Of a stretch of 64,000 nt of DNA, positions 9,963-59,252 are shown piece after piece (positions within the stretch are counted from its first letter, which is position 1; each line of letters begins with the position of its first letter). The DNA is taken from NCBI RefSeq assembly GCF_020085105.1, contig NC_058051.1:5444501-5508500 (forward strand), read 5' to 3'. The DNA comes from Siniperca chuatsi (taxonomy: Eukaryota > Chordata > Actinopteri > Centrarchiformes > Sinipercidae). The position numbers and the translations under genes are program-made. Under the pieces are notes generated by a model, which was not told the DNA's origin, made no database searches, and worked only from the letters and a program-made list of their open reading frames with translations.

Positions 9963-12900
9963 ATGTGGACAGACGGAGTCCTCACACGGGGTGCCTTTGG
10001 ATGGACCACTGAAGGAAACTTCACTTACTTGTGCCCTAATGGGTCCAAATGGGTTTGGGACGGGTTTGGGGAATGTGCCCAGGATGCGAGGGACATGGCC
10101 AGCATTTACCTAGGCCTCCTGTCCATCCTCTGCTTCATGGTGTCTTCTCTTCCGTAAGTGTTTATGGTAGTGTCTGTGCCTCTCAGAGGAAATGCTCTTT
10201 TATCTTAACACTGTGTATAATTCTGTCTGGTTTTTTTCTGGTTGCAGACAGTACTACAGCTCATGCAGAACAGGGAATATGGACAGCGCCCTTTCTATTT
10301 GGTTTCTGCTGCTGTGGTTGGGAGGTGACACCTGCAATCTGGTGGGCTCCTTCTTGGCAGACCAGCTTCCACTTCAGGTGACTTGTAGTGATATAATGAT
10401 TGCCTCAGTGTAAGGGTGTTTCCCGTGACAGAGTTGGGCTGCAACTAACAGTTAGTTTTATTATAAATGAAGCTATAAATCATTGTTTTTTGCTCAATTC
10501 TTTGGTTTGTAAAATGTCAAAAGCGATGAGAAATGCTCATTACAAGTTATGAAAACCAGAAATTATGCTTTTAAATTATTTCCCATTCAATGAAAAAAGT
10601 AGGGATTTTATTATGTTATGACAAAAAAAGCAAATGAACATTTTTAGAGCTATTACCTGTTCATAATTGTTTGTGTCTTGATCAATGACTTAGATGATTA
10701 ACTAATTATTCCAATTGTTATTGATCATTTTTCTGTCAATAGGCTAATTCATTACTTGACTAATCGCGTCAAGGAATGATACAAATAGCTTTTTAAAGTG
10801 AATCCCCTTACAATGACTTTGTTTGTGTGAAGAAAATCTAATCTTTGTTACATGTGTCTTACTCCCTGTCATCCAGATATATACTGCCATTTATTACGTT
10901 GTAGCTGACTTGGTGATGCTGGCCATGTACTTTTATTACAAGATAAGGAACAAAATGGTTGAAAGTGAGTGTTTTTTTTTGTTTTGTTTGTTTGTTTTAC
11001 TACTCAATTTTCAAAATGCCCAGTATAAGGACCAAATTGTCGTTTTCTGTTGTGTTTGAGTTTCAGTGCGCTGTTTGCATCGTTGTACCTCATTTGGTAT
11101 CCTAGACATAGGCCTTTCTTAACATATGGAATAGAAATGAAAAACCCCAAACATGTATTTAATCTGCAACTGTAAAACTTGGGGATGATTCAGTTGCTAA
11201 TAAGGCATTGCTTATTTAAGTCTAAATCAGTTTTATCTGACACAGCAGCTTAATGAACAGCAGCTTCTTATATAACAATGATCTAACACTAGACAACATC
11301 ACATGCCTCATGTTGCTGTGGCGTTTGTTCCCGTACTGTTGACCTTTGACACAGTAATCCTTGTCTGAAAGAATGTGCTAAGATGTCCTCCCAGTGCTGA
11401 TGATGAACACAGGTGTTGTCTCTTCTCCAGGCAGGATGGTTTTGCATGTGTTGGGTGTAGCCTGCGTCCTGGGCTTCACCACAAGCCTCGCCCGACTCCC
11501 CGGGTTAGGCACCCAACAGGAAATCATTCCTTCTGGTTTCAGAAGTCGGGCCTTGCTCTCAATCTCTGACGTTAGCCCTATCAAGGTGAGTCCTATTAAT
11601 TTGTTTAATAAGTGACCTGTGGGAAGTGAACCAGTTATGTGTGGCTTTTTTTTTTTTTTCATGGTGTAATGTTGTGTCTGCCTCTCTGTCGCTTCAGGCT
11701 TTTACCCCGAAAGAGATTATTGGTTTCTCCATCGGCTCAGTGTCGTCCGTGCTCTACCTCTGCTCCAGACTTCCCCAGATGTACACTAATGTGAGTATGA
11801 CAAAGTGTAGACTCCTTAGTACTATTGGCTGCATACTGTAGTTGGTAGTCATTAACTGATATTAATACTTAAGCTAATATTAATAAAACATGGATAATAA
11901 TGATAATTAGAACAAGTATCCCCATCATAATATTACTTTAGCATCACTCTATAGTGCAGACTTTCAAATTATAATAGTTACACTTTTTTTTTTTCTCATT
12001 ACATGAATGTTGGTAAAACTACATCCAATACAACATGTTCTAAACTAAAAAATTCCGATATTTTGGTATCGAGATTGAAAATTCCTATATCAGGTCAGGT
12101 ATCTACGGGTACCCAATGAGTAACATGTATAACATTTAACAATAATAATAATAATAGACAAAAAAGCTGTAAAGGCATTACAAGTTGTGTTTAGATGTAT
12201 GTTTAAATCTGCATTAGATGCAAAATGTATGTCAAAGTGAAAGAGGCAAAATTCAATGTAACTGAAAACTGAGCAGGTGAAAACGCAAGTGAATACTCAC
12301 AGCATGGAGAGTTGCCTCTGCAATCTGCACATATCGCTGCACATATCACTCTGGTAGAAAATATGTGGTGGCTGTGTAAAACCTATCTTCTTTAAAAAAA
12401 AAAAAAAAAGGTTAATGTTATTCCCACTTCCTGTCCTCTCATTTCTCCCCACAGTTCAAGAGAAAGTCGACAGAGGGAGTGTCTTACTTTCTGTTCGCGC
12501 TGGTCATCCTGGGAAACACCACATATGGCCTGAGTGTGCTACTGAAGAACCCTGACGAGGGCCAGGGTGAGAGAAGCTACCTGGTCCATCACTTGCCCTG
12601 GCTCATTGGCAGCCTCGGCACCCTCTCCTTAGACCTCATTGTATCCTTTAATGAAAAAAAACATGGCCGCTGCTGCTGGGCCTCTGGACTGTCCTTAATC
12701 CCACGTACATGCTACATTTTAGGCAGTGCTGACCTTGTAGAGAGGACACTTCATCGGATGGGTGAAGGTCTCATGACTGCGTGTGTGGAAACACAAAGGT
12801 CCAAACACTCAAGGGGAAACTGGCTTGTCACCAGCAAAGAAACAGTGTAAAAGCTGCACTACCAGCCCCAGGAGGCCACGTGTCTCTTTGCACCCCACAA

Positions 12901-23421: not shown

Positions 23422-26400
23422 GTTGTTGGTGTTGTTTGGCTCCCTAGTGTGCGTGGGATGGAAGAGAGGCTGAGGAGTGTTTAGACAGGGTTCAAATGGT
23501 TTACAAACAGTGCGAATCACAGTCCTGTCACATGCCGAGAAAGCAAGGACCCCCCCCCAAACCATCACCGCCATAGTCTGGTAAAGACAGGAAACATCTG
23601 GAGAGGGAACGAAGGAGAAGACAAAAAGGAAGGAGTACAGAGGGGTTAATAAGTTCCCGTTAAAGTGATGATTCTTCTTTCGGACATTTACTCGACCAGA
23701 GCAGGGGTGTCAATCAACTAAATACACCAATTTTCTACATCTGCTGTCATTTGTCATCAAAACTTGAAAAGTACTTAGATGAATTCGAGGGTCCAAAATG
23801 TATCAGTTTTGATGACTATTTGTCAGGTTGAAGACAGATGACTAATAGATAGTCACAGTGGCAAAGTATTGAGAGTAGCAGCCCTTACCACACGTACAGT
23901 AAAAGGCCCTCCTACATACCAGAGCAGAGTTGCTCTGCTGTAAAAAAAATAAAAATAAAACTAATTTAAAGGAAAAGTTCGACATTTTGGGAAAAATTCT
24001 TCTTCACTGTCTTCCTGTGACATAGATGAGAAGATTGATACCACTCTCATGTCAGTACACTACATATGGAGTTATACCAGGCGATAGTTAGCTTAGCTTA
24101 GCATAAAGACTGGAAGCAGGGGGAAACAGCTAGCCTGGCTCTGTCCAAAGGTAACTAAATCCGCCTAACAACACCTCACTAATTAAGACATAATATCTCG
24201 TCTGTTTTGTGGTTTTACTGGAGGCCATGTGTTGGACTATTCCTGGACCGAGTGCAGTGACTTCCTAGAGTTGCTGTTTCCTTTTTCCAGTCTTTCTGCT
24301 GAGCCGAGCTAACCGGCTGCTTGCTCTAGCTTCATATTTAGCGTACAGATTGGAGAGTGGTATTGATCTTCTCATCTAACTCTCAGATCAGACTCGGTAT
24401 CAGCAGATACTCCATATTAAAGCATAATGATAAAAATGAAATGTGATCAGGACATCCCTACTTTTGACTGAGCCTTGTGACTTTTCAACAAGAATACATT
24501 TTTATAACAGTCACTTCAAATAGAGGCTCTTGCTCACAGGCCCTTAGCCCTTGGCCCCGGAGCCTCTGACCGGGAGGCCGGTCCAACAATCTATCCATTG
24601 TCATCAGGGTTACAGTATCTTCACTTAAGCCATTCTAGGGACTAAAAGTCAGGATATCACGACCTTTGCTGTTTAGATGATGACCATTCCTTTTTTATTT
24701 TTATTCCTACGACTTTATGGGAGTGTAATACTAAATCATGTACCCCTTTAACAATGCTACAGAGCTACAGGGATGGTTGGTTGGTTTCCCTGTCAAAGCT
24801 TAACGGCACACTTCAACCACAATTTAAAAGAACACACATTTTTAACATTATCAGATTGATATTATTATCAGCCCTCATCTTCATGCAACATGTTTTACCC
24901 TTTAAATTTCCATCTCCAGCAGTTCTGAGACTCCTGACATTTGGGTGGGCTTTCCATTTAATCAGTGCATAACAGATCCCACAGCAGTCCCAGTTGTACT
25001 GGTCCAGCTGTACTTTAAGAGGCTGCCAGTGGTCACACATGTTTTCTCAAAGGAGACAGGACATGCAAAACACAAGCTGCTGACCCAACTCAAAGACGTT
25101 TCAGTCCGTCACAACACTGAATGGCCATTACAGACTGAATGAAACATCCAGAAAGAGCATCAAAAATCCTAAATGGCACAGGAAGCTCTCAGCTGCATCC
25201 TGTTTCAGCAGTCTGAACAAGTTCACAAGGTCTCACTCTCAGCGTTTTATTGTATCCCCCAAGAGCCATAAAAGCAGTGAAGTCACACGAATCACGTAAG
25301 ACCACATTCCTACGATGCTCTTTGACTTAACACGTAACAACGCAATTTCATTGCTTGAAATCTTCATTCATGTTTCTGGTCTTGCTAATGCAGTTGTTAT
25401 GGCTGAAAATCAGTCTTCCTTCATTGTTCTGTTTTTTTGTTGTTATTCAGATATGTGTGTGTGAAACATTTTTAATGTTTATGGTACTGACCAGATTACG
25501 TTTTTGGGAAGGATACCTGCTGGACGTCAGGGAGATGCACAACATAGTGACTGATCAACCTCTCTGTTTACAAGTAGTATCCTGGTTATGATTGGGGTTT
25601 TGGAGTATCCTGGTGATGTATTGTGCATGTAAACTTATCCTGGTTTTGAGAAACCCGGATATGCTACTTGGAGTACTCCTATAGAAACCATTATACTGTG
25701 GCATGTAAACACCTTATCCAGGTTTCTGAACATTCTTTGTTGGTACAGAACATAGTGGCTGAGATGGTGAGAAATCAAGACAGAACTGTACACAGATGAT
25801 CATAAACCTGGATACTGTTAGAATCATGTATACAGAGAAATTAATAACCAGGTTGCTCATGTTCCACGTCATCATCATCAACAGTTTTCTAAGAAGTTCA
25901 AATTCCCTTTTCATGTGGTCTTTAAATGTCAGGTCAAATGCCTAAATAATCTTGCTTGCATCATTTTCATTTGTTTTTTTGCTAGAAATATTATAAGGAA
26001 AACTGAATCAGATCATAAATCTGAACACAAAATTGCAAAAGCCACATTGAAGTGGTCCACATCTGCAGGTCTACACAGTTCACTCATTAGTCATAAACTT
26101 AAATTTCTGACATACATAACAATTAGTACAAGTTTTTGTTCCTGGACTTCCATTTCATTCCATTTCAGACATGCTGGGTGACCCTCTGGGCTACCCCCTG
26201 CAGGACCCTGACCTCCAGCTGCTCCCTTACAGCCAACAACAGTACAGCACCGCCAACCTGCCCTTCTCCCTCTATGGCTCTCCGCCCTCCTCCACCTCGT
26301 CTCCCTCCTCTTCTTCTTCCTCCTCACAGCCCTGCCATCCTCTGTACCACTACAGCCCTCATTGCCTGGAGGCCCCCTGTGAGCCCAGCCCCGAGCCCCA

Positions 26401-29400
26401 CTGCGGGGGCCTGGCTCAGGGGCTCGGAGCAGTAGGACTGCCGCTGGGGCGGAGGACACGGGTAGGGTCGGGAGGGAAGAGCAGAGGTCAGGACGAGCTG
26501 TGTGTGGTGTGTGGAGATAAAGCATCAGGGTATCACTACAATGCTCTTACCTGCGAGGGATGCAAAGGTATTTCTCACTTTTCACTTTTGTATTCTATCT
26601 TTTTATTCTTTTCTCCAATGCTGTATAGTTGTATTCTGAAAGCTAATCTAGTAAGATTTTGTTTCAACCTCACCTGGTCCTTCTTTTCCCTTCTTTACCT
26701 GGATGCTGTAGGTTTTTTTAGGCGTAGTGTGACTAAAAAGGCTGTGTATCACTGTAAGAGTGGCGGTAGCTGTGAAATGGACATGTACATGAGGAGGAAG
26801 TGCCAAGACTGCCGACTGAGGAAGTGCCGCGCTGTGGGAATGCTGGCTGAGTGTAAGTGACCTCTACTATACTTCAACGACATGAAATTAAATGTAAAAC
26901 ATCATGTAATAAATGAAAATGATTGATGAGAGTAATTAATACCTCCTAAAATAAAATTCATTTAACTGATCTGGCTGGTTTGTTGTGAGTCTGAAAATGC
27001 ATATTTTTTCTTAGGCCTTCTGACAGAGGTGCAGTGCCAGTCCAAACGACTAAGGAAAGGAGGTAAAGATAGAAGACAGGAGGAAGAGGAAAACACAGAC
27101 AGTAGAAGGGTCAGCTCTACTAGCAGGCCACCTGGACAGGTACTATAAAGCAGGACTGACTTAGTCTGTTCTTGATTGGATGGCAGATGGCAGCTTTTTT
27201 AGCCATGCTAGTGGCATGGCCCCGATGATTGCAATGCTGGTCTTTTAGTTGGCCCACAATTCTGGTCCAGACTGAAATGTCTCAACAAGTATTGATTGCC
27301 ATGAAATTCTGTACAGATATTCATGGTCCCCAGAGGATGAATCCCACCGACTTTGATGATCCCCTGACCTTTCCTGTATGGCCAATATGACGTTGATGTT
27401 TTAGTTTTTTAGTGAAATGTCTCAGCCTCAGCTGTACTTTGTATTTAGTGCTAATTAGCAAATATTAGCATGCTAACACACTAAACTAAGATGGTGAACA
27501 TGGTAAACACTATTCCTGCTTAGTGTCAGCCATGTTACCATTGTAATTGTGAGCATGTTAGCATGTTGACGCATTTAGCTCAAGGTACCACTGCGCTGAA
27601 GTACAGCCTCACAGAGCCGTTAGCATGGCTGTAGACTCTTAGTCTTGTCTGGAGATTGTTGATTGTATAGTTGTTTAGTTTGAATGTTGGGTTGAAGGAT
27701 GCTGCCGTGATAGCGCTTTAAATTTATTAAATGCTTGGTTGGTCAGTTGGTTGTATGATTGACTGTTATTGACTGCAATTTGGATAAAATCCAATTTCAT
27801 GGTACATGCAATTTTATTTTGCCATATTAATATATATTGTGATATACTACATTTTGTTTTTGGACAAAACAGCTACATGGGAATGTTTGTTTTAGACTAA
27901 TCTAGCAAATTAGATACCTGGCAAATCTAATAGTGCCACGAAGCAGTCCTGCTCATTGATTTGTAACATTGCCCACAATGCCCTAATACACTTTTACACA
28001 TTTTATAGACATACAAATTTATATCGTTTTATGGTATAGTGTCATATCGCCCAACTCCTATTGGTTGAACAATTAGATCACACTGATGATAGGTTGGATT
28101 CGTTAATCCACTGGTTATATGGGTTGTTTGTTTTTATGATGTGATAGGGTGGTTGGCTCTTTTTAAAAAAAATGTTTCTGTTAAATGGTTTGGTTGATTG
28201 TTTGTTGAATGGTTGGTTGGCTGGTGACCACGTGGTTGGTTGATGGTTCAGAACACAGAGGATTTGATTAGTGAAATGGTCAACATGTTGTTTTGTTGGT
28301 TGGTTGGGTGCTTGGCTAGTTAGATCCTTGGGTGGTTTGTTGGATGGTTGGTCATTTTGTGGTTTGGTTTTTGGCTCGTTAATTGGATGGTTGGATAAAT
28401 GATTAGCTGTGTAGCTGGTTGGATGATTAAACAAAACCATATAAGACCAGTGTAAACTCTCCTCCCCCTGCGGTGGTCAAATTCACACAACATTTATCTT
28501 TCATCTTAATGCACTTTCTGTCCTGTAGTTTTAACATGGGGAAATTATATCATAATCTTGATACTAGTTTAACCTTGTGTTGATTGATTTGTTGAGTCTC
28601 TGTAATTAATATTATAAAGAGTACGGTCTAGACCTGCTATATAGGAAAAGTGCAATGAGATAACTTCTGTTATGAATTGGCGCTATATAAATAAAATTGA
28701 ATTGAATTGAACATCCATCTGCACCAGGCTTCGTCTGCCAGTTTAACCCGAGAACAGAAGTACATTGTGGACAGGATGGTGGAGGCCCATCGACTGTACA
28801 GAGCACAGGACAGCAGCCATTGCAGGGTAGGTCACAGTGTGGAAACACTAGTTGTACTTTCAAACCAGAGTTACATTTTTTATGTTGCCCTCTTGGTTTC
28901 TTGTGTTTGTTCAGTTGTTTGAGTGGCCATGTACAGAAGAAGGGGAGGGCTTGTCTGATGTTGCATCGCCCCAATTACAAAGACTGCTACAGTTTGCCAG
29001 GACAGTGCCAGGTAAGACGGGAATGTATACCCTCAGAATCTCTAATCTGCTTTCTGCTGTGTTCACTTGAGAAAGAAATATAGAATCTAATAAAGGGAAA
29101 ATATGATCAAATTACAAGGAAATTTAAAGGAGAGGTGCTATCTGTTGCTCTGTGGCACTCTCCTACAGTATGTTGAGATGAAGTAGCCCTTGTAGCTGAA
29201 GCCCTGCACTGAGTTTTTAGCCTTGCTCTATAGATGGCTCTAGGGATGGCAATGTTGCCCTATTGGTCCACCACTTTGGTCCAGACTGAAATATCCCAAC
29301 AATCATTGGATGAATTGCAATGATAATTGGTAGCCTACACACACTTTTTTTCCCTTCAGGATGAATTGTAATAACTTTGGGGATTCTCTGACTTTTTATC

Positions 29401-32096
29401 TAGCCCCACCTTCAGGTCAAAATTTTAATTTGTACAATACTTCCATCAGCCTCAGCTGTACTTTGTGCTTATTGCTAATTACCAAATTTTAGCATGCTAG
29501 CACGCTTTCCTAACATGGTGAACATAGTAAACCCCACAGAGCCACTGGTATGAATGGCTTTAGACTCTAGTGTGTTTCACTGATCATGTCAGAAATGACC
29601 AGTGACCTCTTAAAATGCTTTGCATTAGGATTTTAAAACCAGTAGTGCCAGTATAATCAATACTAAGCTACTATGAAGTTCCTGCAACTCTCATTTCCCA
29701 TAATTTCCTATCTGGGCACTATAGGTTTTAGCAAATGCTATTCAAACAGGACTAAATAGTGCAGAGAGATTATATTTATCTGCTGATTTGGTGCTCTAAT
29801 GATTATTTACGGCACCAGGGCTGTGTATGATGGATTGGCGTGAAATTAAAAACAGTTTAGCCATGTTTATGATAATGAAGGAACATGTCACCCAGTGCAA
29901 CAGTGTGGCTAATTGATGTGTTTTAATGGTTTTTCAACAATGGATGTCTATGGTACAGAGGAATAAGTTATATCAGACTTTGGCAACACATACAACATTT
30001 GTCAGTAGGATCAATTCATTGTTGTTTTTGATCTTTTCATGGGATTTTTGACAGTAAGAAAAATATCCTTTAAATATGGATATTTTGACAAGATTTCTGG
30101 GGACTAAAAAGAGCAAAAACAGATGACTGCAAGGAAACAATGAATGGATGATTTGTCTGTTTTTTTTGGTCATGAAATTAAAATGGTTCATCCCATATGG
30201 AATTCCATGGCGCATGATAATACCACACATTAATAAGGACTTCCAAGGAAGTACATACTGCCATCCATCATCACAGCCATTGTGTTGAGAGAATGATAAC
30301 GTGATTAAAACATGTAAATACAAAGCAGAGCCTCATCAAATTCGGTAATTTAAAGGTGGGGTATGCGATTCTAATCCAATACGCGTCTTTTTGTCAAATT
30401 TAGCAAATATCTCCTCACGGCCCGCTAGCTGTCCGTTCTGTGTGTGCACTGAAAAAAAATCTGGTGTTTGTACACAGCCCTGGCTCTGTAAATGGGAAAC
30501 ATACAAAGTGGCTCGGACCGAGCCACACAACACTATTCCAGCCATGATTTATGTGTCCGGTAACGTTAAATGACTTGCCCACGGACATTCAGCTTACTTT
30601 CTAGTTTGCCAAGATATGCTGTTGTTGTTGTGATGTTAGCCATGGTAGCAGGAGAGTTGTGAGTATCGCTGTCTGGAGCTGCTGTGCTGGCTCTGGGAAA
30701 CCGTCTCGTCCTCTCTGGCTGTTAGCTTCACAGCAGCAACTGTAGGGACAGTTTGCTAACCCACAACCTAGCTAACGCTAGTTACATTACTTGCTGTGTC
30801 GTTGTTCGCTTTATATCATGGTATTTGTTATGATATTGGATTTCTCCAGAAACACATTTCACTCATAGGAAATCCTGAAAAAATCAAATAAACAAATGCT
30901 GTATATAAAAACAAATAATGATGTTCCCGTCACAGGTTTTGACCTCCTGGATTTTTCAGACCAGCGCTCTCTCTTGTCTGTCTCTTCACTGGAGGTCATG
31001 TTCCTGCTCTCAGCTCAGCAGTTCTCCCACAACCCAACAAGCCCCAGTCCAGGTGAATAAACCAACAGACAGGCATTTATGAACCATACTTGCATTTGAG
31101 TCGGTATGAAGCAAGTTCAGTCTGATATTTAGTAAAAAAAAAATTGTTTCTTTTTCACTATTATCAGCCCTGCAGCTTTTCAGTATGTCAACACACAACT
31201 GGCTGAGAAATGTAGAGTCAAAGGAAAGCAGCCACAGTAGGACATTGGTCAGCTCAGGTGAATCCAGACATGCACTCGCTCAGAGAATATATAAGAGCTT
31301 ACACGCTTTGAAAAAAAATAGTTAAAGATATTTCACATAAAAATTAACAATTTCCTATTTGCTGGTGTGAACAGGAGGCAGTGAGGATCTCTTCGGGCCA
31401 GTGCTCAACTTCTTCCACAGCATGGAAATGCTGCGGGTGACGGAGGCTGAATACACCCTCCTCACTGCTACAGCTCTGCTCTGCTCAGGTCAGACCAGGA
31501 ATCTATGCTCTCTAATTTGTGGATGTTTGGTCTGAAATAATCCAATCAGCTGTCAAGTCAAGACATGTCGATGCTCTATTCAACTGTAAAAAAAATCATT
31601 AGCTCTTCAGCAGGTTGTGATAGTAAAACGACGCCTCTGAATGATTCACTCAGTCTGTCTCACAGGGTCTGACTATAGACATTATCAAGGCTTAAAATGG
31701 CTTTGCTGCTTTCATGCTCTGTAGGGGTTTTCAAAGTCTGACAACTGCTCCCCCCCATGCAACACAGTTGACGTTTCCATACATTAGGTGTTTGGCAACT
31801 TGAATGTGGCAGTCCATGTTTGGATATAAACACAAAGAAACTCAAGATCTCATCTATGTTTTAGTGTTATGAACCTGTCTCTCTGTCCTGTAGACCGTGC
31901 ATCCCTGCAGGCAGCCAGCTGTGTTGAGAAAATGCAAGAACTGATCCTGGACATGCTGTCCAGGGTGTGTGGGGCTCATGTTGGAGCTGCGTGCGGGAGA
32001 CCTCAGCGGTTTGGCCGCCTGCTGGGCAGACTGACGGAGTTGCGAACCCTCCGTCACAACTACCTCCTCCTGACGAGACAGCAGCTTGGACACTGA
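21671..32096 (+). CDS. nr1h5: FXR-beta-like nuclear receptor NR1H5, lacking helix 12
   Basis: Ten coding exons join in phase: 21671-21767, 26169-26567, 26712-26852, 27015-27139, 28728-28826, 28915-29011, 30936-31052, 31168-31257, 31375-31488 and 31894-32096, giving 493 residues. A serine-rich N-terminal region precedes a two-zinc-finger DNA-binding domain (about residues 144-209) with P-box CEGCKG and the FXR-typical [17 protein letters not shown]. The ligand-binding domain (about 255-493) keeps the nuclear receptor signature ([15 protein letters not shown]) and the FXR helix 10 block GRLTELRT. Oddities: the protein stops 15 residues after GRLTELRT, where FXR continues about 30 and ends in the AF-2 helix; the charge-clamp lysines of helices 3 and 4 are Arg and Ser; FXR's ligand-contacting Arg in MFLRSAE is Leu. 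NR1H5 is preferred over NR1H4 because of this divergence; LXR is excluded by the DNA-binding domain. Confidence 0.9.
22261..22687 (+). repeat. MITE, CACCCAAATTA family, in nr1h5 intron 1
   Basis: Left end AAAGGGTTAGTTCACCCAAA and right end TTTGGGTGAACTGACCCTTT (allowing one mismatch) are inverted repeats; about 427 bases, non-coding. It is related to the truncated copy at 1122-1325. Confidence 0.75.
23371..23418. repeat. (TG)n microsatellite in nr1h5 intron 1
   Basis: A TG dinucleotide array of about 48 bases. Confidence 0.95.
23970..24390 (+). repeat. TTAA-type MITE, right-truncated, in nr1h5 intron 1
   Basis: It starts after a TTAA with AGGAAAAGTTCGACATTTTG and carries GTTAGCTTAGCTTAGCATAA and GGCTCTGTCCAAAGG, typical of a very abundant teleost MITE. 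The right inverted repeat is missing. The inverse, also partial copy is at 13205-13600. Confidence 0.7.
25555..25745. repeat. Probable short DNA transposon remnant in nr1h5 intron 1
   Basis: Words such as GCATGTAAACACCTTATCC and GCATGTAAACTTATCCTGG repeat in direct and near-inverted form, a pattern I associate with fish MITEs. Borders and class are uncertain. Confidence 0.35.
27190..27660 (+). repeat. Interspersed repeat, GCTAACATGCTAAACTAAG family, copy 2 (nr1h5 intron 4)
   Basis: Starts TTTAGCCATGCTAGTGGCAT and ends near GACTCTTAGTCTTGTCT, co-linear with the copy at 18905-19590 but shorter, with fewer internal units. Confidence 0.7.
28030..28435 (+). repeat. Degenerate TTGG-rich minisatellite (nr1h5 intron 4)
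   Basis: Diverged units around TGGTTGGTTGG and TGGATGGTTGG repeat over about 400 bases. The long antisense frame across it encodes only Pro/Asn/Gln-rich low-complexity sequence and is not a gene. Confidence 0.65.
28600..28712 (+). mobile_element. L2-like retrotransposon tail next to nr1h5 exon 5
   Basis: GGCGCTATATAAATAAAATT ending in repeated GAATT units is the stem-loop tail typical of fish L2-type LINEs and their SINEs. It ends about 15 bases before the acceptor of exon 5 (28728), so the insertion sits in the branch-point and pyrimidine-tract region. Confidence 0.55.
29165..29575 (+). repeat. Interspersed repeat, GCTAACATGCTAAACTAAG family, copy 3 (nr1h5 intron 6)
   Basis: Shares GGTCCAGACTGAAAT, GCTGTACTTTGTGC and the ending GACTCTAGTGTGTTTC with the other two copies; more degenerate and missing part of the right end. 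Confidence 0.6.
30354..30851 (-). mobile_element. TTAA-type MITE (piggyBac-like), second copy, inverted (nr1h5 intron 6)
   Basis: This is the inverse of the element at 14928-15432 and is highly similar along nearly its full length. The left end is preceded by TTAA (30350-30353). The right end stops at TTTCTCCAGAA without the last roughly 16 bases of the inverted repeat, so this copy is terminally truncated. Confidence 0.8.
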
Positions 32097-32495
32097 CAGA
32101 AATGGTGAAAACCACCACTATCATCTCTGGGGAGTTTCATGTTTGAATTTAAGGACTAGATGGTTCTGTATGAGCTGAGAAATTGCGCAAAAACATTTTA
32201 GAAATGCAAGCTTTTCACCTGATATTGATCAGATTGTGTTGGATTCTTTGGTCTCAGTTTTTGAAAATCACACAAATCTTTCACCATCTTTTCAGCTGAC
32301 TTCAGTTCATTCAGACCTGCAGTCATTATTGAATTTTAGCTTATGATGGGACTGAAATGTGTTTGTGGACTGCTGCATTTTAATGGGACAAAAGATATGT
32401 TTTAGGTCTTTTTATAACTGTTGTATACAGCTAACATGTAACAGTACTTTTCACTATGCTGAGTAATGTTAAAATAAAATGAAAAATTAAGACTG
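32097..32495 (+). terminator. nr1h5: nr1h5 3'UTR and poly(A) signal
   Basis: A short 3'UTR leads to AATAAA at 32473-32478. Just after the stop the old frame reads a Lys-x2-Pro-Pro-Leu pattern beyond a second stop, weakly reminiscent of the lost helix 12 region. Confidence 0.7.
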
Positions 32496-33794: not shown

Positions 33795-36700
33795 CTACAG
33801 GTAGTTTGAGGCCACAAAGCCGTGGCTGTGGCTGACGCGGCTCTGGTGGATCATGGCGCGGTCATACGCCACCTGGACAGACTTGCGGATGCTGGACTTG
33901 CGGCCCTCCATTATGCGCAGCTTGTCTGCTGTGTCGTCTACACCCAAGGGTGTCACCTTGTCACGTGGGAGCCACTGCCTACAGTAGATATACATAGATT
34001 CAGACTGTTAGAGCCTTTGAAGAAGAGTGATGATGACCACCTTTCACTGCTTTAGACCTGTTTTGTATGACCCCTCTCTCTCGCTCTCCAATGTAAAATA
34101 TAAAGTGTAAAGTAAATGTATACATATAACTACAACATATAAAACTATATTCATTTTACAATTTACAAATGAAAAAGTCCTCCTTGACTGGACAATTCAC
34201 CCAGCTGAAGTGTATTTAACTAAACACCTGCTCCATGTAGGTCTATAGCTGACCTCTGACCTCACTGTGGCAGGAGGAGCATTGCATTAGATTTGAGCAT
34301 TTCTGTTTGACCCTCACCATGTTCGCTTGTTATCAAAGAAGAGCACCAAGTAGAGCCTCTCGTTGGTCTCCTCCTGCCTCTGCTCCCCCAGTCGGAGGAC
34401 GTCTTTGGGTGGGACAGGGATGGGCACCCCGTTGTGCAACAGGCCCTCCTCGGGCATCTCTGGGTCAATGATCTGGAATGAACACAGTCAAACAGGGAAT
34501 TTAGGTCTGTTTCTAGCACTGCACACAGCTGTTCTATGGTCCCAGGGTACTCTTGATTTTTGTTTCTTCTAGATGTGGTTATATCACTGTCAAACTCACT
34601 TATTGAGTTTGAAACGCTTTGAGTAGTTGGAAAAGACGAGAAAGGCGCTATATAAGTATGGTCCTCAGTCCACTTATTTCGATTTCTCAACATGTGGTTT
34701 GGTGAAAGCTGCCTACATTATTTAAAAGCTTCACCACCTGTTGACAGCTCATATTAGATGGCTCTTCAGTAATACTAGGTAGGGGGATTACCAGAGCAGG
34801 ATAGGAAGGATATCCCCGACACTTAGCCCACACCAGTTCTAGAGGCTCCAGCTCTGTCTCATCGTCAGACGTTTGGCTGCCGTTGCCTGCAAAACAGCAG
34901 CAGATGGTGGCATAATTTTATGAATAAGAAGGAAATGAACACGACATTCATACATACTCTTAACTTTACTGGGAATATGTGTTATATTTTGTGACACAAA
35001 AATTGTGTTGTTAAAAGAGTAACTAAACCCCCAAACCACTTTTTGAAAACCAATGTATATGGGTATTTAGTGGTGTTGTTGATGGATTTAGGTCCAAATC
35101 TCGACATTTTAGTGCTATGTTTCGCTGCTCTGATTGGTTGTAGGTCTGGGCCTGTGTCCAGTCTGCAGGTCTTTCCAGCACAACATACCGGGCTCACGAA
35201 ACTCAAACTAGGCAGTGTCAAGATTCTGTTACTACATTGCCTATTTCCCCACCTTTTCAGAAACACATTTTAGTGTACTGTAATTTGAGAAAGTATGTGA
35301 CCAGGCCGCCATTTTTTCCTGCTTGAAAACGGACCAAGCATCGCTCATGGCACCTCCCCATCGCTCAGGGCTACGTAACGACACATGTTTCGTTGCGGTG
35401 ATTGATTGTATGTCAATCCAATTGCGCCCCCTCCCAGAGCTGCCCATGTTGATACTTGTTTCATGTTCTAGAGGCATTTTTTGAATTTCCAGGGTAGAGG
35501 CACTTCAGCCAAAACTTTGGGGTTTTGTTACTCTTTAAGGCACATTTGTGAGCAAGAGAGAGGGAAAAGAGGATGATATGCAATGTTACACAGAAGAAAA
35601 CTTCTTTTTAAAATTCAGGTGAACAAAAAAACAAAAAAAACAACAACAACATACCAGTGTAATCTGAGTCTCCGTTGACTATCTCCAGGAAGGGAACTTT
35701 GGAAAGAGCTGGTTTCCCGAGGCTTCGTTTGGGTGGTGAGCTGCTGTAAGATAGCACCTTGTATTGTCAATGTACTGTCAATCATTACTATAACCAAACA
35801 ACCACTGACAACAGATACACCATGTCTTACATTTCTCTGTGGAGGACTGGACAAGGGCTGTACTCAGAGTCGGACTCGCCGTCTTTGTGCTTATTGAAGC
35901 CATTGGTCAGTCCTGAAAGCAAATGAGAGAAATCTCAGAACAGCGGCAGCTGAAACAAGACCAGGAGGAAAACTAGACAGGAAAAGGGGACACCTAAGCA
36001 CAGATATCTTTAGATATCTTTCTCTCATCTCAGTCACAATGAAAACAACACCACAATATAGTGCTACAACAATGAGTGTAAAAGAGTACAGCACACAATA
36101 ATCCTAGATAATGGGGGGATGCAGGGGTGGTGTATGGGTGAAGTGAAATGGGCAATTGTTTGTTTTGTTGATCAGGTAGACTGAGATAGGCAAAAACAAG
36201 CTCCTATACTGTGATCAGGTAGCACACTTTGTTTCCTCACGACAAAGGGAAAGAACAAGAGCTCAAAGGATGTATGATTAATACACAAAACTAAGTTTGA
36301 CATGTTGTAAAATATGTAATTAGTATTAGCTAGCTAACCTAAAGTGATAAACAGATAGTAAAAATGGATAAAGCCAAGTTGAAGACTGCTATTTTATCTC
36401 TTGAAGAGGTCTGTTCTGAAAGAATGTAGCTAAATTTAACATTACTTAGTGGGAAACTAACATCTGTAACTGCATTCTAACAAGTTATACATCCCTCCAC
36501 ATATTTTTGCTGACATTGTCATTATTTGTATCATGACTGTTGAGACATGTTTAAATTTGTTATTAGCTACCAGTTAAGTAAGCACATTCCAACAAGCATC
36601 CTATTTGATCACTTTCTAGTGAATGTCTTCAGCGCCAACAGTAGTCAGTTCTAAAACACCACCCTGAGTGGTGGATCTTAAACTTGGGGCAAAAGAAGTG

Positions 36701-39700
36701 TCCAATGTCAGTAACTAAGTGAAGCTTCTCACCACTTTCCAGTGTATGATTTGGTGTCTTCTCCAGCTCACTATCTGAGCACATGTCTCGGCTGGGGGTC
36801 CATTGTTCATTGAGGGTGGGGGGTCCTGGGCTTTTCTGTGGGGTCTTGGATGGAGTGGACAAAGGTGTGGAGGATGTGGAGTTGGGTGCTGTAGGGGTGT
36901 TGCTTGTATCATCGTCCTGTGGCCCCTTGCCATTCAGCAAAGGATTGTCTCTCTCTCTGAACAGCTTAGCTCCATTTTTTGCCTTCTTGAACAATACAGA
37001 GGTTCGTCGCCCAACTCCTCCGGTGGTGGGCCGTGGAGGGGCGCTGAGCACTGGCAGGCCGTTGGCCACTGCCTGTCCTTGTCCACTGTGCAAAATGGGA
37101 GGCGGTGACACAGGCCACTCCTGTGCTTTAGTGCAATTAATGTTCTCTGTGGTGCTGTTTGAGAGGTCACCGTCCAGCTTTAGGCGTTTGCAGGGCCAGC
37201 TGGGGGACTGGGGCTCCCCTGTGATTGGCCGCAGGGTGGGAGGCTCCAGAGGTGCGTCCCCCCGTCGTGGAGGAGGAGCAGGCCCTGTAGGTTCCAGTGT
37301 CGGGGGTGAAGTGGATTTGAGGTCTTCTGAAAGATGAGGACAAAAACGACATTCAATTTCATTCAGCGTTTATTTGAAATGAATGCCCATTTAGTATGTA
37401 GTGTGATGTGGTGGTGTAGTATTCACACTGGAAAATGGTTTCACTTCATAATGATTTACACTTCACTCTAACCACAGCCCAAAGGGAGCTGAGGTATTCT
37501 GTGGATATGGAGGACCTTATCAAGACGAGTGAGTAAACAACTTTGCGCTCACAACTGTACACCAGCAACATGGTAACATGGCAGTATTTTATGACTCAAC
37601 TGACACAAATCAAAGGCGTTCTGCTGCCCTCGTCTACGGTAGCAAGCCCTCCTCTACTGTAGCAAGAGACTGTTTGTAGTCAGAAGTGGGATGATATGAC
37701 ATGACTGTACGTGGCCAATGGAGAGTGGTGAGTCCATGAGAGTGATGTATAGAAGAGGTGCAGACATAGAGTGCACTGGGAGAGAGGAGTTGTGAGGCAG
37801 CCATGGCTAACGAGACTCTGTGGGCCCCTACTTACTAGACTGGAGACAGTGGGGTGGTTGGGGTTGGTGCGTGGGGGGGACCCTGGCTCAATTACCTGAG
37901 GACAATGTTCCGTTAGCTCATGTTCACAACTGGTCTCATTGAAAAAAGTGGCTTTTAAAGGTTCATGCATTGGCAATTTCATACTGTTGAAATGTCAGTG
38001 CTTTTCATCACCCACCTTTGTCCGAAGATGAAAGGCTGTTGTCTGCCTTGGCCTCTTTGTCGTCATCTTCCTCATCATCGTCATCCTCATCGTCTTCTTT
38101 CAGATGTCCATTGTGAAGGCTGTGGCGGGGGTGTTGGCCTTGTCTGTAGCGGATGTTGTTGATCTCACGACGAAGCAGGCGGATGCGTCGAGTTCGGGCG
38201 CCACTGCATCGCATGGAGCTCACAAAGTCCAGCTTTTCTAACAGCTCCTTCAGCTGTTCCTCCACTGTCATATGAAGCCGGTTGTCTGGATCCAGCACAC
38301 TGTCAACTGGACACAAGAGGAAGGAGTTAGGCTAACAGTGAAGCTAGCATGCATGTCCCACAAAAGGTACAACAAATATGAGTTTAATACTGATATTTTT
38401 TAACTGAAGCTGAGTTGCTTGTATTAGCTAATGAGCAACAGTACAAGAGCCAATGCACTTGCAAATGAGAGATGAGAACCATTCTCTGCTCTCAAAAAAA
38501 GAGGAGAACCCACCACCTGTTTATCACACCTGAGTTCAATTGTTCTAGCCACACCCAGGCCTGATTACTGCCACACCTGTTCTCAATCAAGAAATCACTT
38601 AAATAGGACCTGCCAAACAAAGTGAAGTAGACCAAAAGATCTTCAAAAGCTAGACAGCATGCTGAGATCCAAAGAAATTCAGGAACAAATGAGAACGAAA
38701 GTAATTGAGATCTATCAGTCTGGAAAAGGTTATAAAACCATTTTTAAAGCTTTGGGACTCCAGCGAACCACAGTGAGAGCCATTATCCACAAATGGTGAA
38801 AACACGGAACAGTGGCGAACCTTCCCAGGAGTGGCCAGCCGACCAAAATTACCCCAAGAGCGCAGTGACGACTCATCCACTGACAAGACAAAAGTTGAAG
38901 GTGTGTGTTCCATTTACATCTGGCGTAAAAGTAACACCGCATTTCAGAAAAAGAACATCATACCAACAGTAAAATATGGTGGTGTGATGGTCTGGGGCTG
39001 TTTTGCTGCTTCAGGACCTGGAAGACTTGCTGTGATAAATGGAACCATGAATTCTGCTGTCTACCAAAAACTCCTGAAGGAGAATGTCTGGCCATCTGTT
39101 CATGACCTCAAGCTGAAGTGAACTTGGGTTCTGCAGCAGGACAATGATCCAAAAGACACCAGCAAATCCACCTCTGAATTGCTGAAGAACAAAATGAAGA
39201 CGGAGTGGCCTAGTCCTGACCTGAATCCTATTGAGATGCTGTGGCATGACCTTAAAAAGGTAGTTCATGCTTGAAAACCCTCCAATGTGGCTGAATTACA
39301 ACAATTCTGCAAAGATGAGTGGGCCAAAATTCCTCCACAGCGCTGTAAAAGACTCACTGCAAATTACACTTAAACACTTGATTGCAGTTGTTGCTGCTAA
39401 GGGTGGCCCAACCACTTTTTCACACAGGGCCATGTAGGTTTGGATTTAGTTTTCCCTTAATAATACTTTCATTTAAAAACTGCAAAAAAAAAAAAAACCT
39501 GCAAAAAAAAATAAAAAATCAGGAAGGGGGCAAACACTTTTTCACACCACTGTATACACAACAGCCTGAAATCTGAATCTGAGCTGAACTAAATTTCAAT
39601 CCCATCTAATCAACTTTAAGTTGCAGTGTACTGATGTATTATCGTCAAAATTAATGTTTATTTGTACTGTATCATAGACCATGTATCTAAATAAGTATTA

Positions 39701-42700
39701 AATCATTTGGGAGCGATACATACAGACCCCTATCTTAAGTACAAAAGGTGTGTGTGTGTGTGTGTGTTCATATTTCCTGTTGAGTACCACCACTTTGACT
39801 TACCATCCTCCCAGGTGCAGCTGTAAAAGTCTCGTTTCTGCGGTGACTCGGGAAGGAGCATGCCAGTGTCCATGTCCAGGCCTGTGTTGGTGGCTTGTCG
39901 TTGGGCATGGCGCAGTATGGCTCCCCCTAAGTCTCGAAGACGCAACGCTGCCCGGTGGAAGACTGTGTCCTTGGCATTGTAGAGGAGGCAGTTGGACACC
40001 ATCAGGTTGAAGTCTATTTCCAGGTCAGCCACTGAGCGGTAGGCATGACTCTCCAACTTAGAGCACATAGTGGAAAAGTCCATGGGCTTGCTGATAAACT
40101 CCATGTAGTCTGGGACCTTAGAACAAGACAGAATGGCATATAAAATACAAATTAGTGAGCTTAAAATTGTGTCACGTGGACCGCTAACAGAGGGCAGGAC
40201 CTTTTAAAATTATGCTGTTGAGAAACTGATTTCCAGTCTGCAGCTTAAATCAGTTATTTTAATTTCTGGGTCAATTCGCAACTATGGAGCCCTGTTTTTA
40301 TAATCGCAACAATGAAGCGTTCTGAATTTGCTACCTCTCTGATTTCACCTTTGACTGGCTTCTCCTGCATAGCAATAGCAGCCAAGGCTCATGTGTATTG
40401 TAGTACATAGAACTGTACATCAAAAAAAGATTTCTCAGAAACAAAGTTGAAATAATTGAAAGTGGTAAGAACATCTTTAAGGTCTTCATTATCTCGGAGT
40501 CCTGTGATTCTCTGTTAAGTAACATTGGGCATGCCATTTAAAGAAATCTTTGAAATGGGAATACAGGGGACACTTCTGGCCAGCAGACCCTCCCACTTCA
40601 CAATCCTATATAAACTGTGTCCATGCATCTGGTCTCAGTGTTGTAACAGTGAAATGTCTGACCTCCTTGATGTTGACTGGCTGTGCAAAGATCTGGGCTG
40701 TGTCCTTCTCCTGTAGTTGCTCCAAAGTGGAGCGGAGCAGCACCAACATCGGGGTCAACTGTATCTCCAGAGCTGCTTGGTGAACTTTGACCTGCAATTG
40801 TTAAAGGATATGTATGTGATGTCAACATACATGGAAGTTGCTACCATAAAGAATTCAGGCAAGTTCTTACAGACTGCCGCAGGCTAAAGAGAAAAGATGT
40901 AATGCGAAGCAATACTTGTGAGGGACTGTGTAATGTTAACTAACCAAGCCAATGGTTTTCTGTATGAAATGTGATAAAATCAAAATATTTCTACAAAGAT
41001 GTCCACAGACAACTACAATATAATTTAAAGTCCTCATCTGGTCAGACTTCAATATTCACAGACCACTGGCTGTCCAGCATAGCTTATGTATGTAAGGTAA
41101 TTGTCAGTTTTGATGGGCTTTACTTTTCCCAGTAACGGAGCTCTACCCATTCATAGCAGCCACAAATAACGGGTAGAGCTGCAGTTTGTGGTTAGTATCA
41201 CCACGAAAAAAAGAGATGTCAAAGAAAAGTGAGACCATCCAAACATCTCAGAACTTCAGACTACACTGGAGAACACATTAACATTTTAAATACCCATAAT
41301 TTATGCACTTCAGATCTTCAAAATTCCAGCTTTGTGTTCTGTACATTGAAAGTTATGCTTTCCAAGGGTAAATGGTGAATTAACAAGCCTGAATATGAAA
41401 TACAGTTAATAGCCATGCCTGTTTGCATGTCAGATTCATCCGTATATGTTACCTGTTCTCGTTTGAGCTTCTCCCTCTTGCGGATGAGCTCAACCAGCAG
41501 CCTGGCTTTTTCAAGGTCATGCCGCAGCTTCTGCCAATATCTCAGTGCTTCTCTTGCAGCAGAAACCTTCTCATCCACCTCAGGCTACAAAGTACAATAC
41601 ATTTTTTAGAGCTCTGTTGTATAAACACTGTATCAGAGATGTACAGTGATGTGAAAAAGTGTTTGTCCCCTTCCTGATTTATTTTTTTGCATGTTTGTCA
41701 CACTTAAATGTTTCAGTTTATCAAACAAATTTAAATATTAGTCAAAGATAACACAAGTAAACACAAAATGCAGTTTTTAATTGAAGGTTCTTATTATTAA
41801 GGGAAAACAAAATCCAAACCTACATGGCCCTGTGTGAAAATGTGATTGCCCCCTAAACCTAATAACTGGTTGGGCCACCCTTAGCAGCAACAACTGCAAT
41901 CAAGCATTTGCAATAACTTGCAATGAGTCTTTTACAGCGCTGTGGAGGAATTTTGGCCCATTCATCTTTGCAGAATTGTTGTAATTCAGCCACATTGGAG
42001 GGTTTTCGAGTATGAACTGCAGCATCTCAATAGGGTTCAGGTCAGGACTTTGACTAGGCCACTCTAATGTCTTCATTTTGTTCTTCTTCAGCAATTCAGA
42101 GGTGGACTTGCTGGTGTGTTTTGGATCGTTGTCCTGCTGCAGAACCCAAGTTCGCTTCAGCTTGAGGTCACGAACAGATGGCCAGACATTCTCCTTCAGG
42201 AGTTTTTGGTAGACAGCAGAATTCATGGTTCCATTTATCACAGCAAGTCTTCCAGGTCCTGAAGCAGCAAAACAGCCCCAGACCATCACACTACCACCAC
42301 CATATTTTACTGTTGGTATGATGATCTTTTTCTGAAATGCTGTGTTACTTTTACGCCAGATGTAATGGGACACACACCTTCCAAAAAGTTCAACTTTTGT
42401 CTTGTCAGTCCAGAGTATTTTCCCAAAAGTCTTGTGGTTTTAGTCTTGGAACTCTGCCATGCAGGCCATTTTTGCCCAGTCTCTTTCTTATGGTGGAGTC
42501 ATGAACACTGACCTTAACTGAGGCATGTGAGGCCTGTAGTTCTTTGGATGTTGTTGTGGGGTCTCTGAATGGCTGAAGAAGAACAAAATGAAGACTTTGG
42601 AGTGGCCTAGTGGAGATAGGTTGAGCAAACTGTTTGCGAATGTTTATTCAACATCTGTTGCATAATAGCTGAACCTTATATGGATTCAGATGTGAATTTG

Positions 42701-45330
42701 ATACAGCATTCTAGTGAGGCTGACAGACGAAGAAGAACAACAAAATGAATCTGAATCCTATTGAGATGCTGTGGCATGACCTTAAAAAGGCAGTTCATGC
42801 TCGAAAACTCTCCAATGAGGCTGAATTACAACAATTCTGCAAAGATGAGTGGGCCAAAATTCCTCCAAAGTGCTTGATTGCAGTTATTGCTGCTAAGGGT
42901 GGCCCAACCAGTTATTAAGGTTTAGGGGGCAATCACATTTTCACACAGGGCCATGTAGGTTTGGATTTTGTTTTCCCTTAATAATAACAACCTTCATTTA
43001 AAAACTTAAAAACAAGCATTTTTTGTTTACTTGTGTTATCTTTGATTACTATTTAAATTTGTTTGATCTGAAACATTTAAGTACGACAAACATGCAAAAA
43101 AATAAATAAGAAATCAGGGGGGCAAACACTTTTTCACACCACTATATCTAAAAGGCAATCAATGAATTGTAGAAATTGTTTGGTAGGACAATGGCAAAAT
43201 AAATACACTGAATACCATCACAAAAAATGTAATCATCAGAGTACAAAAACAGTTACAGAGTGCCAAGGTTGTAGTTCTGTTTCCTGCCCTGACCTGTTCA
43301 GTATTCCTTTGGGATTGGACATTAGAGTGCAAACGCCGGACCAGCGGCACACCATTCCTCGACTGACGCTTCAGTAACCAGTAGCTATGCAGCCTCTGCA
43401 TGAACTGGTTTTTTCTCTGGAAGAGGATTCCTTTGCAGATGATATTCAGCCTGTACAACAGAAGGATGCAAGTTGTCTTACTGTCAACATGACAACTGAG
43501 CATCAGTTCAGGCATTACCACTAGAGAAATGTTTCTTTTAAATTGTACACCAATGCTTAATTAAACTGGCTAGCAAATTCAAAAATCTCCACCAAAAGCT
43601 GCTTTAAAACATTTTTTTGGTATGTTTTGACCAAGTTGGTCTTCACTAGGCGTGTTGAAGATTTGATGAAAATCATCTTGGTCAAATGTTAAAAGTATTG
43701 GTCAAAATAAAATAAAATTGGGTGTTTAATTTTTGTTGAACAGCAACAGAAGCACAGCATTTTATTTTATTCATAATAAAAGAAAATTTAACCTGTTTGT
43801 GGGTATCTGAGGCATTGCCATTTGTGGTGAAGCAGTGTGTCGTGTTGTTGACTCTGTGCTCTTCTTCCCTTTCTTTTTATCCGTCTTGGCATCATCTTCA
43901 GACTTTCTGCCTTTTTTTGGTGTTATAGGACCCTCTGTGTAGGCACTCCATCCTCTACTAGCTCTCCCTCTGCTGCCCACCACTCTTCCTTCACTCTCTT
44001 CATCTGAGATGGTCTCTTGTCCTGGTGGTGAATGGGCCTCACAGAATGCGGTCTTCTTAACAGAGAATGTGGTCCCGTTGACATTTGTCTCTCGCACAGG
44101 ATCTATCTTCATAAACAAGCCAGCACGCTGAGCACATGTGACATGAAACGCTGTGTAACAGTTGGCCTTGTGACACTGAATTGATGCACCGCGGCCCTTC
44201 TGCTTACACAGGTAGCAGGTCAGTTTCCAGCGTGCTGGGGGAATGTTAATGACCCCTTCCACTGGTTCTAGAAAAACTGTGTTGGCAAAGCAGACTTCAG
44301 GGATCCAGATGGCACAGACCACATGTGCCCAGCGGCCGTCACTCGTTTGCTTGAAGGCGCCGCCACGGTTCGGACATAGAACACAGTCAACAGGTTTCTG
44401 AGGGGACTGTAGGCAGCAGCGGCACAGCCACTGGCCCTCAGGGATGTAGGGCACTCCGTAACACTCCTGGTGCACAGCCAGGTTGCAGGAGTCACAAAAG
44501 AGGATGACGTTGCTGTTGAGGCACTCATCATCTAGGCACACACAGCAGAAGGCATCGTCGTCAATAGTGTTCTGAGAGGGTGCCCGGCTGCGGGCTTCCC
44601 GGTACGCCTCCTCCTCCAGCCGGTCCACCAGCAGCTCAAAGGTGTCTGGTGAGACAGTGGAGTAACCCTCTGATGTCCGGCCAGCATTGACCATCTCCAA
44701 CCAGGCGGTGTCCTCTTCGTCCATGTCATATTCTGCCTCAGCTTCCTGCTCCTCAGCTAAGCATTCAATGTAGCGGTAATATGCTGTAGGCAGAGGAGGT
44801 GCCTCGACTGGCGTGAAGGTTTCTAGCACATGAAACTTAGGTTCGGGGAGGGTCATGTGGTGATGGTGTGATGTGTTAAACTTTTCGGGTGTTTGTGGAT
44901 GAGAACTGGGGCAGTGGTTCTTGGAAGGTGGTGGCGACTTGACAGGAGGACATTTGGAGTCTTTCCTGCGGCCTCGGGGTGTGACGGGTTTGCGGACTGT
45001 TTGGGCACTGCTGGTGGGAGATGATGACTGCTCACTGTTCTCCTTGTTGCTGTTACACTCACTAATGTCCTGAGCCATCATCTCATCTTCAGTAATGACC
45101 TCCAATGGCTCCAGTATAGAAATGCGGTGAAGCCTACCATCCAGTTCCACTTCCACCACCTTCTGGGCCTGGGCGTAAGTCAGGGTTTCTCTGCTTGGAG
45201 ACGCTTTAAGGCTATAAGGGGACGGGGATCGCTGGCGGGCACCCCCACGCCCGCCAATTGTCCCATTGGACTTCCTGACATCGGCTCCACCTCCTGCTGC
45301 CACCTGGCCTTTTCGACGTGGCTTCCTCAT
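33795..45330 (-). CDS. brpf3: Bromodomain and PHD finger protein BRPF3, histone acetyltransferase scaffold
   Basis: Twelve minus-strand coding exons: 43793-45330, 43294-43450, 41453-41584, 40663-40791, 39804-40116, 38016-38306, 36733-37326, 35831-35912, 35655-35743, 34792-34886, 34318-34472 and 33795-33978. They join in phase into 1252 residues (human 1205). Seen in order: the conserved N-terminus MRKPRRK and [10 protein letters not shown], an enhancer-of-polycomb-like region with [11 protein letters not shown]1 (about 261-308), zinc knuckle and PHD2 (about 314-435), a bromodomain (about 620-735, with YNAKD) and a C-terminal PWWP domain (about 1115-1200, [15 protein letters not shown]). BRPF3 is known to scaffold the KAT7 (HBO1)-ING-MEAF6 complex and favour H3K14 acetylation. 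The start matches human BRPF3, not BRPF1 or BRD1. Exon 9 has a tandem CAGCAG acceptor, so one Ser may be optional. mapk13 lies upstream in the same direction, as in human. Confidence 0.95.
34560..34690 (+). mobile_element. L2-like retrotransposon tail in brpf3 intron 10
   Basis: ACGCTTTGAGTAGTTGGAAA followed by GGCGCTATATAAGTA is the characteristic 3' tail of L2-type LINEs and SINEs in fish. Confidence 0.55.
35015..35534. mobile_element. TTAA-flanked MITE in brpf3 intron 9
   Basis: A 520-base element with ends AAGAGTAACTAAACCCC and GGGGTTTTGTTACTCT as inverted repeats, flanked by TTAA at 35011-35014 and 35535-35538. Non-coding; piggyBac-like by target site. It is not the same family as the element at 14928. 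Confidence 0.75.
38506..39553 (+). mobile_element. Tc1-like DNA transposon, internally deleted, in brpf3 intron 5
   Basis: Plus-strand Tc1-like element. It retains the start of the transposase region with helix-turn-helix coding (38655-38860), then skips most of the central part and resumes at GACAAGACAAAAGTTGAAGG. The catalytic-core remnant includes [16 protein letters not shown]. It ends in the 3' inverted repeat ...CTTTTTCACACCACTGTA. The 5' inverted repeat is missing, and there are stops and deletions, so no active transposase. It lies antisense to brpf3. Confidence 0.8.
41644..42565 (-). mobile_element. Tc1-like transposon, left arm of an inverted composite (brpf3 intron 2)
   Basis: Reads from the 3' inverted repeat (CAGTGATGTGAAAAAGTG at 41644) backwards through the 3' half of the transposase. 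The minus-strand frame carries [13 protein letters not shown], the second catalytic Asp context QDNDPKHTS and DLNPIEM. It stops abruptly near 42565, where the sequence switches to the opposite orientation. Confidence 0.8.
42566..43145 (+). mobile_element. Tc1-like transposon, right arm of the inverted composite
   Basis: From about 42566 the same family runs in the plus direction. About 40 bases are followed by roughly 125 bases of unrelated sequence (42607-42735), flanked on both sides by a GAAGAAGAACAA word. Then the 3' part runs from about 42740 to the terminal ...TTTTTCACACCACTATA. Both outer ends of the composite are therefore the same (3') end of the transposon. Confidence 0.75.
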
Positions 45331-46640
45331 AGGCCACCAATCACACGTTCCCTCCTGTTGGTTTAAAAGGAAATAAAATGAGAAAACTGTGTTGTCAACT
45401 TGTCAGACTGTAAGTACAAGAATAAGCATTTCATGATGCTACAGTAGAATATGAAAACATTATGCCATCATTCCACCATTTACAGATAGCCCTATATAAT
45501 GATACATTCATACAGGACATTGCCCTTGCTGTAATATTTTGCTGTTATTGTTAGCTTTTGTTATCTTAATAAATTGTTCTGTAATCACTTATTATCTAGC
45601 TAGATTTATTCTCTGCTGCTTCAACAGCTTAATTTCCCCTTGTGATGATTATAAAATTTACAGGACTAAGCAAAATCTAATGCCATTGCTGTAACAATGC
45701 CATAAAACTAAGGCCTTAAGAGGCTAAACATGCTCTAAACATATTGACTTATTAACTCATTCAAAACAATCTCGTGCATTGCATTTTACTGTGTTATCAG
45801 GCAGGGATATGGTCAATATCACCTGTAGTGTAAAACATTCCTTCACACACCTCAACTCGCAAAACCCTTACTTACTCAATCCTAGTAGCTAAATATGTAG
45901 ACCAATGTATTGACAACTGACCAATTGTCAAACTGAGGGTTACTCTCCACTGTCAATACACACACGGGCAATAGAGAAAAATTATCTGTAGATGATTCTC
46001 GACTTAATCTCATAAACTGCTGGCAACTACTATCAGGGCTAGCCACAACACAACGTGCACATCCAATCAGCTTTCATGAAAGTTTAACTGATCCATCCCA
46101 GAGCCAATCAGCTTTAAGAAAACCACTGTCTCAACTGATCAGCGTCCTTACTTTGGGAGTAAAATGTCAGCCATATTTACAGTTTTAAAACACTGTTAAA
46201 AGCTCTTCTATGGTTTGCATTTTAATAACGTTAATAGTTTTGGAATGTTCAAGCAGTGCTTCATCTGGTCAAGTCGGGATGAGAAAGGCAAAGTACTGTG
46301 ACAGTATTCCTGTACTCTGACATAAAGTACGGAGACAAGTAGGTTAGTATAATTAAAGATATCAGCTAGCTAACCTGCTAACTTTAAAACATGGGCAGTG
46401 CCAACGTTAGCTGGCTATTATTTTTAACGTTGACAAGGCGCAGAACAAGTTAAACCATTGCTAGCTAAAACGGAATTAAAAGTTCTGAGCCACTCTATAA
46501 TATAGAAACGTTAGGTAGCAAACTTAAGCCATCTTACCTATTATGGCAACTGACTTGACACAAGTAGCTCGACAGCCGGCGGTCTAAAGCCGCTTCTACA
46601 GTAATGGTTGCCTAGCCAGCCGCCTTACTTGCTGTAGTTT
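45331..46640 (-). other. brpf3: brpf3 5' non-coding part: UTR, intron and probable first exon
   Basis: The exon with the start codon begins at an acceptor (aaccaacag, exon from 45354). Upstream on the minus strand a probable first non-coding exon ends at 46538 with GCCATAATAG followed by gtaagatgg, a strong 5' splice site. It is GC-richer (GACAGCCGGCGG) and its 5' end is placed near 46640 by eye. The intron between holds nothing recognisable. Confidence 0.5.

Positions 46641-48649: not shown

Positions 48650-59252
<10,603 letters not shown>

Follow-up and report, generated by a model that had tools for sequence, protein, structure and literature searches.

The locus raises the question of what a nuclear receptor of the FXR class would do if its protein ended before helix 12. 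The window, that is, the whole stretch of 64,000 nucleotides that was analysed (C10:5444501-5508500, from a genome of 719 Mb in 65 contigs), carries an NR1H5-like gene of the FXR class of nuclear receptors. Its structure is intact, and the encoded protein ends at helix 11. The gene has eight coding exons on the plus strand (26171-32096), and their joined open frame encodes 430 residues. All seven introns are GT-AG, and the eight exons contain neither a stop nor a broken splice site.

Exon 1 (26171..26567) contains the N-terminal region from the first ATG and the start of the first zinc finger, in an open frame followed by a GT donor; a further coding exon may lie upstream of it. The remainder of the DNA-binding domain is in exon 2 (26712..26852), and the hinge is in exon 3 (27015..27139), which aligns with the nr1h4 exon. 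The ligand-binding domain starts in exon 4 (28728..28826) and continues through exons 5 (28915..29011, helix 3 region), 6 (30936..31052, helix 4-5 region), 7 (31375..31488, helix 7-8 region) and 8 (31894..32096, helix 9 to 11). Exons 2 to 7 all have GT-AG borders. A probable 3' untranslated region follows at 32097..32495, with AATAAA at 32473; its end point is an estimate. When the joined protein is scanned with Pfam from the zinc fingers onward, the C4 zinc fingers (zf-C4) and part of the ligand-binding domain are found, the latter at 50.5 bits against a cut-off of 23.5.

The zinc fingers are of the FXR type, as 62 of the 73 residues are identical to human FXR. When solved structures are searched with both domains, the top score goes to LXR-beta (165.8 bits) and the next to an FXR zinc-finger chain (157 bits). 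If only the ligand-binding part is used, every one of the 31 solved sequences that reach E 1e-20 or better is an FXR, so this domain is closest to FXR. A five-row tree also groups the gene with FXR, against LXR. Within the genome itself, its zinc fingers are otherwise most similar to those of an LXR-type gene on C1 and of nr1h4 on C4, while a search with the last exon at E < 1e-3 finds only the gene itself and nr1h4; this search missed LXR and is thus not exhaustive. NR1H4 (FXR), both of the same genome and human, has the zinc fingers, the exon plan of the ligand-binding domain and the GRLTELRT block in common with the NR1H5-like gene. The name NR1H5 is given by elimination, as this is the FXR-type gene of the genome other than nr1h4, together with a synteny that we take to support it. 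PMC4339804 lists NR1H5 in mouse, rat, mallard, turtle and frog.

Viral contigs scanned with the last exon gave no relative. A scan of genome contigs gave a single match, a nuclear-receptor-like stretch at 5001-5108 of L075 (JAITBX010000071.1) with 53% identity over query residues 62-97. The contig is filed in a Burkholderiales bin, and the stretch is probably animal contamination of that bin.

The first-pass annotation had placed the stop 15 residues beyond the GRLTELRT block, and this is what the sequence reads: GRLTELRT is found at 32025 and the stop TGA at 32094-32096, both in exon 8. It had also given FXR a tail of about 30 residues. The FXR of the same genome indeed runs 30 residues past GRLTELRT into an intact helix 12, located in the matching last exon of nr1h4. 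Helix 12 is intact in nr1h3 (LXR) of this genome as well, where the protein ends LPPLLSEIWDVNE before its stop. Among 26 other C-terminal receptor exons of the genome, a set that omits the NR1H5-like gene and nr1h3 and was classified by reading, 18 have helix-12-type ends, four end like Rev-erb without helix 12 and the other four run into intron. The NR1H5-like protein has no helix 12 and no AF-2 core of the kind found in FXR-type receptors, and in this it resembles Rev-erb (NR1D1/NR1D2), which ends 15 residues past LRTL/LRSL compared with 14 here. PMC7840129 singles out the Rev-erbs as the only nuclear receptors that lack helix 12.

Helix 12 carries the glutamate that makes up one half of the charge clamp for coactivators, and this half is missing here. 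Activation through AF-2 is not to be expected from such a sequence, which supports the earlier proposal that the receptor cannot be activated in the normal ligand-dependent way. According to PMC3042382, NR1H5 is activated by sterols such as lanosterol; this implies a working AF-2 elsewhere, unlike in the Siniperca gene.

The changes are not limited to the C-terminus. In FXR (numbered with the last residue taken as 472) the coregulator groove includes Lys303, Ile317 and Lys321, and the pocket Arg331 and His447; like helix 12, all of these are lost or replaced in the NR1H5-like gene. According to the alignment the groove changes are K303R in exon 5, which preserves the charge at this helix 3 position, and I317R and K321S in exon 6. 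The combination of a helix 3 Lys, a hydrophobic helix 4 residue and a helix 4-5 Lys that makes up the corepressor groove is here Arg, Arg and Ser. We compared these positions in 38 other receptor segments of the genome, taken from 39 loci (L068 gave no match, and one opposite-strand row of L073 was dropped). Position 317 is hydrophobic in 32 segments, polar or acidic in six and basic in none, while position 321 is Q, R, K, E, D or Y and never Ser. Four loci, which we take to be NR4A, have Asp or Glu at the same groove position. They are thus charged like the NR1H5-like gene, but acidic instead of basic, and the three that were read keep their C-terminal helix, unlike the gene studied here. The I302R mutation of TR, at the same groove position, reportedly blocks coactivator binding; a literature search for this mutation found no paper.

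In the pocket we find R331L, H447Y, Y369F and Y361L, and W454 is replaced. Arg331, His447 and Trp469, which we take to be bile-acid pocket residues of FXR, are thus Leu, Tyr and absent, respectively. His294 is replaced by Gln, but it is also Gln in nr1h4, where residue 361 is already Phe, so these two changes are weakly informative. Further, ten residues are missing in the helix 6 region of exon 6 in comparison with nr1h4, and the ligand pocket would be shorter there.

Conservation is uneven along the domain. We counted the residues on which human FXR and nr1h4 of this fish agree. Those retained in the NR1H5-like protein are 7/20 in the helix 1-2 region, 5/15 in helix 3, 16/25 from the last part of helix 3 through helix 5, 1/12 near helix 6 and 12/33 in helices 7-8. 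The fraction is higher in helix 9 (10/15) and helix 10/11 (11/12), and after residue 443 it is 3/25. Helices 9-10/11 together keep 21/27 compared with 34/85 in helices 3-8 (Fisher p 0.0008, with assumed helix borders and a grouping chosen post hoc). Since helix 10/11 is conserved across nuclear receptors as a whole, folding may account for its retention here. Apart from the groove and pocket changes, the helix 4-5 block is well preserved, and with 16/25 kept the domain has not simply decayed around the groove.

Because the groove is changed in addition to the loss of helix 12, our best reading is a passive competitor that would bind DNA and pair with RXR and would recruit no coactivator. We hold this reading tentatively, at slightly less than an even chance. 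The FXR-type zinc-finger domain would bind DNA and the helix 9-10/11 face would pair with RXR. Coactivators with LxxLL motifs should not be recruited, given the missing helix 12 and the altered helix 3-5 groove. The receptor would then be a passive rival of FXR for both RXR and response elements, and activation in the receptor pair, if any, would come from RXR. The gene structure, the missing helix 12, the substitutions and the conservation pattern are read from the sequence, whereas expression, RXR pairing, DNA sites, competition, function and the extent of the truncation among lineages are inferred. Putative competition for FXR elements, which had been suggested at first pass, fits the kept zinc fingers (62/73) and helices 9-10/11 (21/27). 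Several points count against the passive competitor: K303R retains the charge that corepressors need, the helix 4-5 block is otherwise kept, helix 10/11 may be retained for folding, the ligand-binding part evolves fast, and there is a small chance of a +2 frame tail of FXR-like length.

Going further, it is conceivable but on balance doubtful that we are looking at a second, independent origin of a vertebrate nuclear receptor lacking AF-2. A fish FXR paralog would then act permanently as a dominant negative in bile-acid signalling, having lost helix 12 and changed the shared groove while keeping DNA binding and RXR pairing, so that RXR ligands alone would speak through the pair. A search of titles and abstract starts, with most subscription journals outside it, found no report of a helix-12-less fish NR1H5, which is weak evidence of novelty. 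If true, such a paralog would show that a receptor can become a silent partner in the course of evolution. It would also bear on bile-acid signalling and toxicology in fish, where the roles of the two FXR-type genes may be opposite.

A different history is decay, in which constraint is weak, the gene is heading for loss and the truncation has no regulatory role. The ligand-binding domain evolves fast, and this fits decay as well: measured from one common fork, its tree branch is 2.1, that of nr1h4 0.84 and that of human FXR 1.02, subject to a long-branch warning. So do the replaced pocket and groove residues and the ten missing ones. Further, NR1H5 is a human pseudogene and was not found in Tetraodon, according to PMC3042382. 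Against decay stand the eight exons free of stops and broken splice sites, and zinc fingers that are so largely identical to those of human FXR. A change of role and gene loss are both plausible histories, but we regard decay without a role as unlikely.

The first-pass annotation had also suggested a constitutive repressor. In the form of a Rev-erb-like active repressor, the receptor without helix 12 would hold NCoR/SMRT permanently and silence FXR-type elements. Four C-termini of the genome end Rev-erb-like at nearly the same column (the one that was checked best matches NR1D2 and NR1D1), and the helix 3 charge is retained as Arg. There is also a precedent in the truncated TR-alpha of thyroid hormone resistance, where the loss of helix 12 abolishes activation and gives a dominant negative receptor with constitutive repression (PMC8852717). 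These are disease alleles, whereas the NR1H5-like truncation belongs to a reference assembly and comes with an altered groove.

It is the groove that speaks against active repression. Corepressor peptides dock in the helix 3-5 groove that is also used by coactivators, so that coregulators share one common groove (PMC3315023). Rev-erb, a member of another subfamily, retains the residues of the groove and recruits NCoR with heme; in Rev-erb-beta the helix 3 Lys takes part in corepressor docking (PMC7840129). The one Rev-erb examined here, on C21, has both the hydrophobic residue and the Lys of helix 4-5 (FAKHIPGF..DQVTLLK), where the NR1H5-like gene has Arg and Ser. Because of these residues we rate Rev-erb-like repression lower and find it rather improbable. 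The precedent of TR-alpha speaks for the constitutive repressor, I317R and K321S speak against it, and it is the less supported part of the earlier proposal. The sequence would favour the passive competitor, with DNA binding and RXR pairing, over a Rev-erb-like recruiter of NCoR.

A small indel before the stop, be it an assembly error or an allelic frameshift, could hide a real tail of FXR-like length in the +2 frame. A frameshift-tolerant alignment does pick the +2 frame, in which Trp and stop are as far apart as in FXR, and the codon score of this tail (2.31) is reached by 7.8% of stop-free noncoding pieces. If only the portion past the stop is scored, it is matched by 19% of such pieces. 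The alignment score of the full +2 tail is equalled by 60/400 shuffles and 31/400 window pieces, and from residue six on by as many as 302/400 and 217/400; from the Trp, a start chosen post hoc, the numbers are 40/400 and 14/400. The tail also lacks an exact helix-12 motif.

As far as the stop, codon statistics support the annotated frame. With log-odds derived from 2148 codons of the same genome, the segment from GRLTELRT to the stop scores 6.69 in the annotated frame, compared with -0.62 and 2.23 in the other two, the latter being the +2 frame. After the stop (32097-32143) the score is negative in all three frames, the best being -0.23. A hidden +2 tail is in our view highly improbable.

The earlier statement that no splice donor precedes the stop needs correction. 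There is a donor-like site, AGG/GTGTGT, at 31965 within the last exon. A rough weight matrix gives it 6.9 bits, inside the range of 4.3-11.2 bits seen for the seven donors of the gene. What stands is that there is no downstream helix-12 motif to join: P-h-h-x-E-h-(W/F/L/Y/M) does not occur on the plus strand from 32041 to 64000, and the short form of the motif does not occur within the first 2.1 kb of the downstream search. A separate exon encoding helix 12 would further require a splice from 31965 that deletes helix 10/11 of the receptor, while helix 12 of nr1h4 lies within the matching exon and the stop of a convergent BRPF-type gene is reached already at 33795-33797. Such an exon is therefore extremely unlikely. 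Finally, the tail may have been replaced by a mobile element.

The old frame past the stop does read QKW, a second stop and KPPL, as had been claimed. The idea that this is a faint echo of the lost segment did not survive comparison, as it is no better than chance in DNA or protein. In four local DNA alignments with the FXR tail, 13% to 58% of random window pieces do equally well, and the best protein score among the three frames is equalled by 41% of random pieces.

Some other features of the window were noted. The convergent gene, presumably a BRPF, occupies 33795-45402 on the minus strand, has Pfam matches to EPL1, PHD, bromodomain and PWWP, and is the next gene found downstream of the NR1H5-like gene. 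A DDE_3 transposase-like stretch lies between its exons (41900-42439, minus strand). Two protein-kinase-like exons below the Pfam cut-off, at 52873-53121 and 57114-57377 on the minus strand, resemble what we take to be a p38 MAP kinase gene, and a PQ-loop repeat exon is found at 12416-12850 on the plus strand.
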